A DNA stretch of 42,804 nucleotides. It comes from Acidimicrobiia bacterium. GTDB lineage: Bacteria > Actinomycetota > Acidimicrobiia > Acidimicrobiales > JAHEJN01. Position 1 is the first letter of the stretch, and each line of letters begins with the position of its first letter. The notes beneath the pieces are model-generated. The model did no database searches, was not told the origin of the DNA, and saw only the letters and a program-made list of their open reading frames with translations. Made by a program: the position numbers and the translations under genes. This document shows, piece after piece, positions 15,625-21,532 of the stretch. The stretch spans positions 1 through 42,804 of the forward strand of contig JAOTZB010000003.1 of assembly GCA_029861625.1 (NCBI GenBank), read 5' to 3'.

Positions 15625-16141
15625 CGGCGCACGATACTTCGCTGCGCATCCAGCGCAGATCTCGCGCCGACCCGCACCCGGACGCGCAGCGGGCACCCCG
15701 CTCGGGGTGCCCGCTCGCGGTGAGATGAGCATTGTCACGATCCTCGGGACGTTCCACCTGGTTCTTCCTCGAGTGGCCTCTCGGGCCCTGCGGGTGAGAG
15801 AAAGCTGCGGGAGAGTCTCGACGTCCGTGACGGCTCAGAAAGTCACCGTTTCGGAGGATCCCGTTCGCCATCGACAATCGGTGGGAACATCTCGATCCAA
15901 CCTCCTTGCCTCTCTGTCACCTGCTGTGTCCGGTGGACCAGTCAGCGTGACTACCGCAACTATCCGCCCGCACGTGGTCTGTGTCAAGCGTCACATGCAT
16001 TGCCGCCATGTTGCTGCCGCGTGACATCTCATCATGGTCTTCCGTTCCCCCCCGTCGTGGCGCTATGGTCTGTCGCCACTAGAGACGAACGCGTCGAGAA
16101 CCACCCGCCGTGTTCGCGATAGCCAACCCATGGAGGGGTAC
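15625..16141. other. 517-base intergenic region upstream of Nudix and ABC transporter genes
   Basis: No gene is supported here. It holds a perfect 12-bp hairpin at 15688-15715, and a segment at 15795-15865 with short self-complementary stretches such as CGTGAC/GTCAC and CGGGA/TCCCG. A weak TATGGT (16064-16069) could be a -10 for the transporter operon with a leader of about 70 bases. I recognise no known riboswitch. It is the longest non-coding stretch in the window, so a leader RNA or small RNA is possible. Confidence 0.5.
15688..15715. repeat. Perfect 12-bp inverted repeat (hairpin)
   Basis: AGCGGGCACCCC is followed by a GCTC loop and the exact complement GGGGTGCCCGCT. No T-run follows on either strand. 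It could be a tract-less terminator or a processing or regulatory hairpin. It lies 64 bases upstream of the Nudix start. Confidence 0.6.
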
Positions 16142-17347
16142 ATGTTGACTCGTAGATGGCTGACCTTGTTCGCCGTCATCGCCACGTTCGGTCTGCTCGC
16201 TGCAGCCTGCGGTAGCGATGACGACGGCGATGAACCAGCAGCCAGTGACGACACCGCAGAAGCCGACGAAGCCGATGCAGCCGACGAAGCCGATGCAGCC
16301 GACGAAGCCGACGAAGCCGACGAAGCCGACGAAGCCGACGAAGCCGACGCAGGCGACGAAGCCGACGAAGGCGACGAGACCGTCGAGCTGACCCAGGACG
16401 GAGGCCGACTCCAGGCCGTCCGCGATCGCGGCAGCCTCATCTGTGGTGGCAACGACACGCTTCCGGGCTTCGGCTTCGTCGACGACGCCGGTGACTTCTC
16501 CGGCTTCGACATCGACTTCTGTCGAGTGGTGGCAGCAGGCGTCCTCGGCGATGCCGATGCTGTCGAGTTCGTGCCGCTCACCGCAGAGGCCCGCTTCACG
16601 GCCCTCCAGTCGGGCGAGATCGACGTGCTGATCCGCAACACCACCTGGACTGCGACCCGCGACGGCCAGGAAGGCGCGAACTTCTTGTTCACGACCTTCT
16701 TCGACGGCCAGGGCGTGATGGTCCCGGCGGCGACAGGCTTCACGACCCTCGAGGACCTCGCCGATGCGAACATCTGCGTGCTGTCGGGTACCACGACCGA
16801 GCTGAACCTCACCGCGGTGTTCAATGCGCGCGGCATCCCGTTCAACCCGGTCGTGTTCGAGGACAACACCCAGCTCCGCCCGGCCTATGAAGAGGGCCAG
16901 TGCGAAGGCTGGACCTCTGACGCCTCGCAGCTGGCGGCCTTCAAGGCCACCATCGAGGGAGAGGGCGGCGAAGACCAGTTCATCATGGCCGAGATCATCT
17001 CGAAGGAGCCGCTCGGTCCCGTCGTCGCCGATGGCGACACGGAGTGGGCACAGGCCGTCGAGTGGTCGGTCATGGCGCCGGTGCAGGCCTGGGAGTTCGG
17101 GCTCGACTCGGGAACCATCGGCAGCTACGACGGTGATGACCCGAACATCTTGAACTTCATCGGTACCGATGGATTCGATCCGGGTCTCGGCCTTCCGCCC
17201 GATTTCGCGGTGACCATCGTGTCGTCGGTCGGGAACTACGAGGAGATCTACAACGCCAACATCGTCCCGATCGGTCTGTCGCTCGCCGGCTCGCCGAACG
17301 ACCTGTGGACGAATGGCGGCCTCATGTACGTCCCGCCGTATCGCTAG
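16142..17347 (+). CDS. Amino-acid ABC transporter substrate-binding lipoprotein (AapJ-like)
   Basis: A 401-residue lipoprotein. The signal MLTRRWLTLFAVIATFGLLA ends in a lipobox with Cys23 (LLAAACGSDD). Residues 41-79 are an acidic Ala-Asp-Glu repeat linker. From residue 85 on it is a family-3 periplasmic binding domain: LQAVRDRGSLICGGNDTLPG, FDIDFCRVVAAGV, VEFVPLTAEARFTALQSGEI and DVLIRNTTWTATRD. The RNTTWT motif and the extended C-terminal half are those of the general L-amino-acid receptor AapJ, longer than ordinary binding proteins. The ATG at 16142 has a GGAGGGG ribosome site; an ATG 12 bases upstream is less well placed. A strong hairpin separates it from the permease genes, which would favour excess binding protein. 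Confidence 0.93.
   Translation: MLTRRWLTLFAVIATFGLLAAACGSDDDGDEPAASDDTAEADEADAADEADAADEADEADEADEADEADAGDEADEGDETVELTQDGGRLQAVRDRGSLICGGNDTLPGFGFVDDAGDFSGFDIDFCRVVAAGVLGDADAVEFVPLTAEARFTALQSGEIDVLIRNTTWTATRDGQEGANFLFTTFFDGQGVMVPAATGFTTLEDLADANICVLSGTTTELNLTAVFNARGIPFNPVVFEDNTQLRPAYEEGQCEGWTSDASQLAAFKATIEGEGGEDQFIMAEIISKEPLGPVVADGDTEWAQAVEWSVMAPVQAWEFGLDSGTIGSYDGDDPNILNFIGTDGFDPGLGLPPDFAVTIVSSVGNYEEIYNANIVPIGLSLAGSPNDLWTNGGLMYVPPYR
16262..16378 (+). repeat. GCCGACGAA 9-bp tandem repeat coding an acidic linker
   Basis: About 13 units of 9 bases (GCCGACGAA and variants GCCGATGCA, GACGCAGGC) encode Ala-Asp-Glu and Ala-Asp-Ala triplets in residues 41-79 of the binding lipoprotein. The first units alternate as 18-base pairs, the later ones are nearly identical. 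Because units are multiples of three, gain or loss would keep frame and change only linker length. Confidence 0.9.
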
Positions 17348-17372: not shown

Positions 17373-17403
17373 GGGGCGGTCTCGGATGCACCGAGACCGC
17401 CCC
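17373..17403 (+). terminator. Strong intercistronic hairpin after the binding-protein gene
   Basis: A perfect 13-bp stem (GGGGCGGTCTCGG with its exact complement) and a 5-base ATGCA loop start 26 bases after the stop codon. No U-tract follows, as is common in high-GC actinobacteria. It may end most transcripts after the receptor gene or protect that message from 3' decay. Confidence 0.8.
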
Positions 17404-17500: not shown

Positions 17501-19165
17501 GTGACAATCACCGAGTCGACCCAATCGCCAGAGGCTCCGCCGGCCGAGCCCACACCGCGGACGCTGTCGTATCGGCTCCTGGCCCGCATCACCGACGTCG
17601 CGCTCGACGTCGTTGCCGCGGCAGCCACGATCTTCACGATGGGCCTGGTACAGGTAGTCGGACTGTTGACCGGCGTCTCGGCCATCGAGACCTTCGGCGC
17701 CGACGCTCGGTTGCCCCTCACCATCGCCGCAGTGATCGCGTTCCACTTCTACAACAACGCCTATCTCGTCTCTCGCCGCGGCGCGTCGCTCGCCAAGGGC
17801 GAGCTCGGCCTCGCCATCGACAGGAACGAGGCGCTCCCGTCGTTGCCGACCGCGTTGATCCGCGAGGTCGTCTCGATCATTCCGATCAGCTGGTTCGTGG
17901 TCTTCACGAATCGGGAGCGACACTCGCTCGGCGACATGGCAGCTGCCACGGCCGTCGTCAGCCGCGATGCCATCCCCGCTCCCGGGGTTCTGCGCGACGT
18001 CAGGGCACTCAAGCAGATCGGGCAGATCGTCGCGGTCGCGGCGGTCAGCGCGATCGGCTACTGGCTCATCAACAACCTGCTCACGAATCTCGACGAGCAG
18101 GGCATCGGGGTCAGCTTCGATTTCTTGAGCCAGCCGACGAACTTCCAGGTTCCGTTCGATCCCGGCTTCGACCCTCGCAGCCCGGTCCGCAACATGGTCT
18201 GGGTCGGCGTCAAGAACACATTGATCGCCGCGTCGGTGGGCATCCTCATCGCCGTGGTCCTCGGCACGATCATCGGTATCGCCCGCCTGTCCACCAACTG
18301 GCTGGTGGCCAAGCTGGCCACCATCTACGTCGAGGTCTTCCGCAACATCCCGCCGCTCATCATCATCATCTTCTTCGGCGCCGCGGTGTTCACGAACGGG
18401 CCGTTCCCGATCCTGAGCGGCACGAGCTCGCCGAACATCGTCCAGGTGCCCGGGAGCGATTCGGCCCTGCTCATCGTGTCCAACACGGTGGTCGGCATCC
18501 CGTCGTTCTCCAGCGACGGCCCGATCCTGCTCTTCTGGCTCATCGCCCTCGCTGCACTCGCCCTTGCCGTCGGGGTGTGGAGGTGGCGGACCCGGATCAA
18601 CATCGCGACCGGTGACCCGCACCATCGAGTGCTGTGGTCGTTCGGCGTGTTCACGGGCATCACGGTCATCGCGTTCATCGCGCTCCAGGCGCCCTACGTC
18701 TGGTCGTTCCCGGCGGTGGCCGAGAGCGGTCGCAGGATCGACGGCGGCTTCGTGGCGAACTTCGGGTGGATATCGGTCACCCTCGCGCTCGGTCTCTACA
18801 CCGCGAGCCACATCGCCGAGATCATCCGCGGGTCGATCCTCGCCGTCCACTTGGGCCAGAACGAGGCCGCCAACGCGCTCGCTCTCTCGAACTTCCAGCG
18901 TTATCGCTTCGTGATCCTTCCCCAGGCCATGCGCACCGCCATCCCACCCACGATCAACCAGTTCCTCAACCTCACCAAGAACACCTCACTCGGCATCGCC
19001 GTTGCGTACGCCGAGATCACGGCGCTCACGAAGTCGTCGATCGGCAACGGCCGACCCGCGGTGCCCTCACTCGTTGTTCTGGTCGGTATCTACCTCGTGT
19101 TCTCGATCGTCATCTCGACGATCCTGAATCGCGTGAACAAGAAGTTCCAGCTGGTGGGGCGGTGA
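17501..19165 (+). CDS. RDD domain fused to AapQ-like ABC permease
   Basis: A 554-residue membrane protein. Residues about 22-155 match an RDD domain: RLLARITDVALDVV with the first Arg and Asp, then SRRGASLAKGELGLAIDRN, LIREVVSIIP and NRERHSLGDMAAATAVV with the closing Asp145. From about residue 215 it is an AapQ/GlnP-type permease: NMVWVGVKNTLIAASVGILI, FRNIPPLIIIIFFGAAVF, and the EAA loop with EAANALALSNFQRYRFVILP. AapQ pairs with AapM to import a broad range of L-amino acids. The RDD part adds about three helices and is not a usual piece of ABC importers. The GTG start is set by the AAAGGCTGCC just upstream. The gene ends 4 bases before the next permease. Confidence 0.92.
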   Translation: MTITESTQSPEAPPAEPTPRTLSYRLLARITDVALDVVAAAATIFTMGLVQVVGLLTGVSAIETFGADARLPLTIAAVIAFHFYNNAYLVSRRGASLAKGELGLAIDRNEALPSLPTALIREVVSIIPISWFVVFTNRERHSLGDMAAATAVVSRDAIPAPGVLRDVRALKQIGQIVAVAAVSAIGYWLINNLLTNLDEQGIGVSFDFLSQPTNFQVPFDPGFDPRSPVRNMVWVGVKNTLIAASVGILIAVVLGTIIGIARLSTNWLVAKLATIYVEVFRNIPPLIIIIFFGAAVFTNGPFPILSGTSSPNIVQVPGSDSALLIVSNTVVGIPSFSSDGPILLFWLIALAALALAVGVWRWRTRINIATGDPHHRVLWSFGVFTGITVIAFIALQAPYVWSFPAVAESGRRIDGGFVANFGWISVTLALGLYTASHIAEIIRGSILAVHLGQNEAANALALSNFQRYRFVILPQAMRTAIPPTINQFLNLTKNTSLGIAVAYAEITALTKSSIGNGRPAVPSLVVLVGIYLVFSIVISTILNRVNKKFQLVGR

Positions 19166-19169
19166 TGTC

Positions 19170-20756
19170 ATGAGCGATCAGTGGAGCTTCCCGGCAGCCC
19201 CCACCGAGGGGCAGCGCGAGATCAAGGAAGCGCTCGCGAGGGCCCCTGAGGCCAAGAAGCTCCCGCCCCGACAGTGGCTGAAGAAGAACCTCTTCAACAA
19301 CTGGTTCAACGCGGTGCTCACCATCGTGTTGGGTGCGGTGAGCGCGTACCTCCTGTTCCGTACCGTGCGGTTCGTCTTCTTCACCGGCCGATGGGAACCC
19401 GTGCGCGAGAACCTCGAGCTGTTCATGATCGGACAGTTCCCTCGCGACGAACGCTGGCGCATCGTGGGCCAGGTGCTGTTGATCGCAGGCGCCATCGGCG
19501 CGGCGATCGGAGCCCTGCGGGGCGCCTCCATCGACCGCGCCCACGACACCGGCGAACCGAGGGTGGTCGAGAGCTGGCGCACCTACTTTGCGAGCTACTG
19601 GGCCGTCGGATTGTTCGTCGCCGTCATGCTCTCGGCTTTCGTGCGTTCGGCCGGCCCCTGGATCGTCGCCATCTGCTGTCTCGCCCTGGCAGTCATCGGC
19701 TACCTGATCACCGGGTTCCTGCCCACCCGGCTCAGCATCCTCCGTTGGACGATCGCGGCGGTTCCGGCGGTCATCTCCTTCCAGCTCCTGTCGGGCTTCA
19801 GCGGCTGGGCATGGTTCTTCATGACGGTCGCCCTCGCACCCTTGGTGCGCTCAGAGGTCGGGCGCCTGTTGACCGACACCAGTGCGTCGTTGAGCTGGGT
19901 GCTCGCAGCCGTCGGCGCCGCGGTCGGCCTGTACTCGTTCGCCGTCGGCGGCCTCGGGATCTTCAGCTTCGTCTTCACCCTGTTCGGCCTCTACGGCCTG
20001 TTCCAGATGATCTCGGGCGACCGCATCGACGCGGGTCGAACCGGCGCCACGATGGTGTTGGGCCTCGTGGTCTTCCTCGTCTACTCGGCGATCGGTCTCG
20101 ACGGCATCGACTGGACCGACTGGGGCGGGTTCCACATCAGCCTCGTGGCCACCGTCGCCGCCATCGTCCTGGCATTCCCACTGGGGATGTTGTTGGCCCT
20201 CGGTCGTCGATCGAGTCTTCCCGCCGTCCGGGTGATGTCGGTCGCGTACATCGAGTTCTTCCGGGGTGCGCCACTCATCACATTCTTGTTGTCGGCGCAG
20301 TTCTTCCTCGGGTTCTTCCTCGGCTCCGACACTCAGCTGTCGCTCATCACGCGTGCCATCGCGGCGATCACGCTCTTCAGCGCCGCCTATGTGGCCGAGA
20401 TCATCCGGGGTGGGCTCCAAGCGGTCCCGCCGGGGCAGATCGAAGCCGGACAAGCCATGGGGCTCTCGCAACCGAAGATCATGCGGCTCATCGTGATGCC
20501 CCAGGCACTGCGGGCCGTGATCCCGGCGATGGTCGGCCAGTTCATCTCGCTGTTCAAGGACACGACCCTGCTGAGCATCATCGCGATCAACGAACTGCTG
20601 GGCGTCCGCGAGCTCGTGCACGCCCAGGCCGATTTCCGTGGCTTCGGAATCGGCGAGACCCTCGTATTCGTGGCTTTCGGCTTCTGGGCCGTGGCCTTTA
20701 CCATGTCAAGAGAGAGCCAGCGGCTCGAGCGCAGATTGGGAGTTGGCGAACGATGA
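19170..20756 (+). CDS. AapM-like amino-acid ABC permease
   Basis: A 528-residue membrane protein. [20 protein letters not shown] near residue 38 is the AapM-type entry helix. A long polytopic middle (about residues 100-310) precedes the transporter core: [40 protein letters not shown], and the EAA loop with [20 protein letters not shown]. AapM proteins are already longer than GlnP-type permeases, and this one is longer still. The ATG is four bases after the upstream stop, and the stop overlaps the ATPase start (ATGA). It should form a heterodimer with the RDD-AapQ protein. Confidence 0.92.
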
Positions 20757-21532
20757 GCGACACCACCATGGTCCAGAGCGATGCGACCGACATCGGCCGC
20801 CGCGAGGTGATGATCGAGTTGGCCGGGGTCGACAAGTTCTTCGGTGACTTCCAGGCCCTCAGCGGCATCGACATGCTCGTCGGCAAACAAGAGGTGGTCG
20901 TGGTCATCGGCCCCTCCGGGTCGGGCAAGTCGACCCTGATCCGGTGCATCAACCGCCTCGAGGAACACGACGCGGGCCGCATCGTCGTCGACGGCGTCGA
21001 GCTGTCCGACGACATCCGCAACATCCAGGAGATCCGCCGGGAGACCGGCATGGTCTTCCAGTCGTTCAACCTGTTCCCTCATCTCACGGTGCTCGACAAC
21101 GTCACGCTGGCCCCACGTCAGGTCCGCAGGCTGCCGAAGGGCGAAGCCGAGGAGATGGGGATGCAGCTCCTCGAACACGTGAAGATCCCCGACCAGGCCC
21201 GCAAGTTCCCCGGCCAGTTGTCGGGTGGCCAGCAACAACGTGTCGCCATCGCCCGATCCCTCGCCATGAGCCCGAAGGTCATGCTGTTCGACGAGCCGAC
21301 ATCGGCCCTCGACCCCGAGATGATCAAGGAGGTCCTCGACACCATGAAGGACCTCGCCCACGGGGGCATGACGATGATCGTCGTGACCCACGAGATGGGC
21401 TTCGCCCGAGAGGTCGCCGATCGGGTCGTGTTCATGGCCGATGGTGAGATCGTCGAGGTCGGCACCCCGCAACACTTCTTCGAGAGCCCGACCGAAGAGC
21501 GCACGAAGCTCTTCCTCTCCCAGATCCTGTAG
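20753..21532 (+). CDS. AapP-like amino-acid ABC transporter ATPase
   Basis: A 259-residue cassette ATPase energising the transporter. Walker A is GPSGSGKS, the Q-loop is [18 protein letters not shown], the signature is [18 protein letters not shown], Walker B is [15 protein letters not shown], and the switch His is in VVTHEMGFA. These are characteristic of polar amino-acid uptake ATPases (GlnQ/AapP). The ATG overlaps the permease stop. A longer frame open through the permease gene in another phase is not coding. The SDR gene follows 14 bases later and may be cotranscribed. Confidence 0.95.

Follow-up and report, generated by a model that had tools for sequence, protein, structure and literature searches.

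The gene at positions 17501 to 19165 of the window (the whole 42,804-nucleotide stretch of DNA analyzed here) almost certainly encodes a real fused protein, in all likelihood a single polypeptide in which an AapQ-type permease subunit of an amino acid ABC importer carries a captured RDD domain as an extension of its cytoplasmic N terminus. Matches to the RDD family (PF06271) and to permease profiles, each over cut-off, lie in the same open reading frame, which bears out the first-pass annotation in placing an RDD domain at the N terminus of such a permease. From comparison of related sequences, we propose, with a probability of roughly 0.5, that the RDD part is a two-helix accessory module whose role is not ion related but concerns how the importer assembles, how stable it is, or how it is controlled from the cytoplasmic side. 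The features of the gene and its operon are as follows.

16034..17347, + strand: amino acid binding protein (SBP_bac_3) of the operon (profile match, PF00497)
17373..17403, + strand: perfect 13-bp hairpin in the gap between the binding-protein gene and the fusion gene (sequence, folding)
17501..19165, + strand: RDD-AapQ fusion gene, 554 aa (GTG start, AAAGG just upstream)
17561..17965, + strand: RDD domain, residues 21 to 155 (PF06271 over cut-off; alignment with stand-alone RDDs)
17573..17671, + strand: RDD helix 1, approximately residues 25 to 57, with R25 and D32 (AlphaFold RDD model at moderate confidence, hydropathy)
17708..17779, + strand: RDD helix 2, approximately residues 70 to 93 (AlphaFold RDD model)
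17843..17908, + strand: third hydrophobic segment of the RDD, approximately residues 115 to 136, a broken helix, perhaps re-entrant (hydropathy, AlphaFold; topology inferred)
17966..17998, + strand: RDD-permease linker, residues 156 to 166, with the junction as in family f99 (alignment)
17999..18097, + strand: AapQ extra N-terminal helix, residues 167 to 199 (homology to unfused AapQ starts here)
18185..19147, + strand: permease core, residues 229 to 549, BPD_transp_1 (profile matches, predicted structure)
18863..18928, + strand: EAA coupling loop EAANALALSNFQRYRFVILPQA, residues 455 to 476 (sequence; near-invariant in alignments)
19170..20756, + strand: AapM-type second permease, 528 aa, without an RDD (profile match, PF00528)
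20753..21532, + strand: AapP-type ATPase, 259 aa, with an ATGA overlap with aapM (profile match, PF00005)

The frame runs for 554 codons from the GTG with zero internal stops. An AAAGG that resembles a ribosome-binding site lies 5 bases 5' of the GTG at 17501, and no AAAGG-like site precedes any of the internal in-frame start codons listed as far as residue 146. The log-likelihood per codon was 0.31 for the RDD part and 0.50 for the permease part, compared with −0.5 to −0.7 in the other frames, and GC3 was 0.87 and 0.92, respectively. PF06271 matched residues 21 to 135 of the whole protein (28.6 bits; E = 2e-6; Pfam) and scored 32.8 bits (E = 1e-7) against residues 1 to 200 alone, so that the N-terminal region has a significant family match; the curated cut-off is 24.1 bits, and the window RDD scores 28.6 to 33.1 bits. 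A whole-genome scan recovered the fusion site (E = 1.6e-7) among four RDD places in the genome. Two of the other places (L001 and L003) fall within or next to ORFs that contain regular Asp/Leu repeats such as DLDALLQRIDVNEIAGRL. Because MAFFT put stand-alone RDDs onto the permease core when they were aligned with full-length permeases, separate alignments were used. In the alignment with seven stand-alone RDDs from this and related genomes, the window RDD has all of the invariant columns (R25, D32, G94, K99, R121, D145, A148, V152, and V153), including the Arg at the start of helix 1 (R25), the Asp within that helix (D32), and the second conserved Asp (D145), the three residues from which the family takes its name. 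Since these columns are kept through the alignment, the domain reaches approximately residue 155; the hallmarks earlier assigned to residues 22 to 155 are thus present (R25, D32, R121, and D145), in a domain of approximately residues 21 to 155.

The permease part matched BPD_transp_1 (PF00528) at residues 251 to 548 (41.2 bits; cut-off, 26.4) and the HEQRo/polar amino acid 3TM domain model TIGR01726 at residues 232 to 292 (45.4 bits; cut-off, 42.2), and its predicted core is similar to the amino acid transporter 4yms (TM-score of 0.86 by the target's length). The fusion protein passed none of the NCBIfam equivalog cut-offs, and "AapQ" is therefore a class-level name from which no substrate follows. 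Alignments to homologs of 57 to 65% identity begin at residues 141 to 187, mostly 141 to 161. The AapQ core had earlier been said to start near residue 215, which is too late: AapQ homology begins at approximately residue 160, and the extra helix occupies residues 167 to 199. Unfused relatives align only from approximately residue 160, and the RDD stretch is an addition to the protein rather than an ordinary AapQ N terminus.

The importer operon is complete, with the binding protein, two permeases, and the ATPase in AapJ/Q/M/P order (PF00497, PF00528, and PF00005 neighbors). In the binding protein, the probable lipoprotein signal is followed by a long acidic linker with DEADEADEAD-like repeats. 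The hairpin at 17373 to 17403 (z-score of −6.5 for the surrounding 83 bases) is probably a partial terminator or mRNA stabilizer. Hairpins of differing sequence also occur in the same gap of relatives, fused or unfused (for example, L047, L049, L050, L057, L059, and L071), and the hairpin is therefore not linked to the fusion.

The nearest relatives of the permease core (57 to 65% identity; L046 to L049 and L008) are without an RDD and have only ~8 to 75 residues of open frame ahead of the common core, with no RDD features. A resemblance between the start of L046 (SVGDMNNNTA) and the window (SLGDMAAATA) is probably due to chance. Two unfused AapQ relatives (L009 and L010) have another short N-terminal extension, which contains one or two hydrophobic segments but lacks RDD features. 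In one other species of the window's family, the only AapQ-type permease is a distant one without an RDD, and a profile scan of the genome contigs returned a single, distant permease only. In another family of the same order (f99), the permeases have 514 to 517 residues, and their N-terminal extension is an RDD joined at the same junction as in the window; this extension scored 34.6 to 40.4 bits against PF06271, over the cut-off in all three scanned proteins. The RDD-AapQ fusion was present in 22 of the 22 f99 species examined, on a single contig in 21 and split across two contig ends in 1. An RDD-AapQ gene in a species of family f7 (L072; G517:C1) is nested within the f99 clade in the tree, which suggests that the fused gene passed horizontally from f99 to this species; simple contamination is unlikely, as its contig is 1.7 Mb long. 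Among all loci retrieved, both domains occur in one ORF only in the window and the f99-type genes, although 129 of the 148 genomes scanned from the order have RDD proteins as such. A profile of the f99 RDD plus junction found no further fusion in 396 genomes of the phylum, elsewhere matching the permease part only, but this profile misses the window's RDD too, so that divergent fusions could escape the scan. A survey of how widely the fusion occurs had been suggested at first pass, and it shows recurrence in all 22 f99 species and one f7 species and absence from the nearest AapQ relatives.

The occurrence in f99 bears on whether the window gene is an artifact and on how often the fusion arose. 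That an assembly chimera or a missed stop joined two genes here is barely credible. The window-type fusion is known from a single draft assembly of 489 contigs, which lends the idea what weight it has, but the parts are joined in frame at a junction also found in f99, the gene sits within an intact operon, and coding statistics are continuous across the junction. When 56 permease cores were placed in a tree, the window core fell beside the unfused L046 with weak support (81/40), and the f99 fused genes formed a separate, well-supported clade. Constraining all fused genes to one clade lowered the log-likelihood by 29 and was rejected (approximately unbiased [AU] test, p-AU = 0.017), and parsimony on the tree requires either two separate gains or a single gain followed by four or more losses. 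The stand-alone RDDs nearest the window's are types in G344 and G394, and the f99 fused RDD is closest to types from f7, f96, and f104; there is scarcely any match between the two fused RDDs. The tree, the AU test, and the differing stand-alone kin make it the better, though unproven, reading that fusion at this junction happened twice, independently. A single ancient fusion followed by several losses, which would be compatible with any functional role, appears unlikely to us: the junction and the bacterial order are common to both fused types, and the AU test opposes one clade only, leaving room for repeated loss, but at least four losses would be needed in place of two gains, and the two RDDs are barely alike, with different nearest kin and, in f99, no third segment. 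The stand-alone RDDs nearest the f99 type (L165, G399:C35; L166, G263:C12) lie ~10 to 14 kb from their genus's own aap operon on the same contig. It is possible that an RDD of this type was the source of the f99 fusion.

Predicted structure gives some indication of how the RDD may be arranged. The AlphaFold model of the RDD alone (pLDDT of 69.5) has helices at residues 22 to 57 and 70 to 93 and a broken third segment at residues 115 to 126 and 129 to 136, with 10-residue pLDDT means of ~56 to 85 over the helices and third segment. This model, which had no match among solved structures, is in keeping with a chain that spans the membrane twice and has one segment that is re-entrant or lies at the surface. 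In the full-length model, most of the RDD is at a pLDDT of ~50 or less, and no packing site is placed for it. The AapQ extra helix (residues 167 to 199), ahead of a five-helix core, is preceded by the basic residues RDVRALKQ, and its N-terminal side should therefore be cytoplasmic by the positive-inside rule; if this helix starts in the cytoplasm, the RDD must end there. The RDD would contribute two membrane-spanning helices. For both its end and the start of the extra helix to be cytoplasmic, the third hydrophobic segment of the window protein could not span the membrane. The f99 RDD, minus segment 3, would comprise two helices with the junction still cytoplasmic. Common to both fusions is a two-helix part joined to the cytoplasmic N terminus of AapQ.

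Activity has been measured for one RDD, a stand-alone protein of H. andaensis. It is a Na+(Li+,K+)/H+ antiporter that requires D154, R124, R129, and D158, whereas R35 and D42 are not essential (PMC5996927). By offset, as the H. andaensis sequence itself is not in the alignment, D145 of the window fits D154 and R121 probably fits R124. Also by offset only, A149 stands at D145+4 (the D158 place), and there is no Arg 5 residues after R121 (the R129 place). The f99 fusions are without the third hydrophobic segment and without the second RDD aspartate (the equivalent of D154). Among 17 fused f99-type genes, the median dN/dS was 0.18 for the RDD and 0.11 for the permease, so the f99 RDD is under purifying selection; dN/dS covers the f99-type genes, and for the window RDD, conservation of the invariants serves as a substitute.

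These data can be set against two other readings of what the RDD part does. It might be tolerated baggage of a neutral fusion, with no part in uptake. The absence of the RDD from the nearest homologs is consistent with this, as is the window RDD having the lowest family score of the genome's four and being found in one genome only. Against it, the window RDD retains all RDD invariants, purifying selection acts on its f99 counterpart across 22 species, and there are two apparent independent gains, and we regard such neutrality as rather unlikely. Still less likely is a role as a cation/proton exchanger through which the importer is ion coupled or regulated locally. The H. andaensis activity gives this idea its precedent (PMC5996927), and the window retains the counterpart of essential D154 and probably that of R124, but the segment bearing the D154-equivalent Asp is wholly absent from the f99 fusions, and two other essential residues (the R129 and D158 equivalents) appear to be missing from the window, their positions being by offset. 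Moreover, type I importers are ATP driven and need no ion gradient. Because the f99 RDD is kept without segment 3 and the second Asp, ion exchange is unlikely as a shared function, and whatever function is shared needs neither; D145 and R121 leave some room for an ion role in the window RDD. The first-pass suggestion that the RDD gates, regulates, or ion-couples uptake thus stands in part: service to the importer gains from the recurrence and selection in f99, and ion coupling is weakened by the f99 RDDs that lack segment 3 and the second Asp.

That the RDD serves the importer is supported indirectly by the fusion in 22 of 22 f99 species, by purifying selection, and by the apparent passage to f7. 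It is not required for a permease of the AapQ type, since close relatives work without one. As an accessory module, the RDD would pack next to the AapQ extra helix and help the AapQ-AapM-AapP complex to assemble or remain stable, or would tune the activity of the complex from the cytoplasmic side, without a separate ion pathway. The remaining probability is divided among neutral baggage, ion coupling, and other roles. A broader and more doubtful, though tenable, conjecture is that RDDs are interchangeable membrane modules repeatedly recruited by ABC importers as built-in regulatory or assembly subunits and that they generally bind and control partner membrane complexes instead of moving ions. 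If so, the fusions would offer a first handle on the general function of RDD proteins. RDDs are a widespread membrane family with almost no assigned function, and fusion, apparently twice, to a well-understood importer subunit makes their role testable by a clear readout (uptake or complex stability). The f99 version, in which the antiport-essential aspartate is dispensable in a fused setting, also separates ion exchange from another role of the RDD fold.

Both component families are known, and their combination is new relative to the open-access literature searched, where no RDD fused to an ABC permease is described. With AapQ of AapJQMP-type importers (polar amino acid permease family, TIGR01726, PF00528), the window protein shares the permease core, EAA loop, and extra N-terminal helix, and the operon has the same order (binding protein, Q, M, and P), but unfused AapQ is without the ~155 N-terminal residues that form the RDD. 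With stand-alone RDDs (PF06271; three other places in the genome and the H. andaensis antiporter), it shares R25, D32, D145, other invariants, and two predicted helices; it differs from them in being fused to a permease, in its shortened third segment, in the apparent loss of two of the four antiport residues, and in the decay of the G(Q/R)TPGK motif to GASLAK. The f99 fusion lies in a corresponding operon, with the binding protein upstream and the RDD at the same junction. Its whole proteins are 44 to 50% identical to the window's (cores, 50 to 56%), and its RDD retains a GQTPG motif but, unlike the window's, is without segment 3 and the second Asp. The nearest precedent for the window fusion is the RDD region of the Mas1B proteins, which are encoded in mycobacterial mce operons (PMC1810536). 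There, as here, an RDD is encoded with an importer-like ABC system, but it is on a separate Mas protein and not on the permease (PMC1810536).
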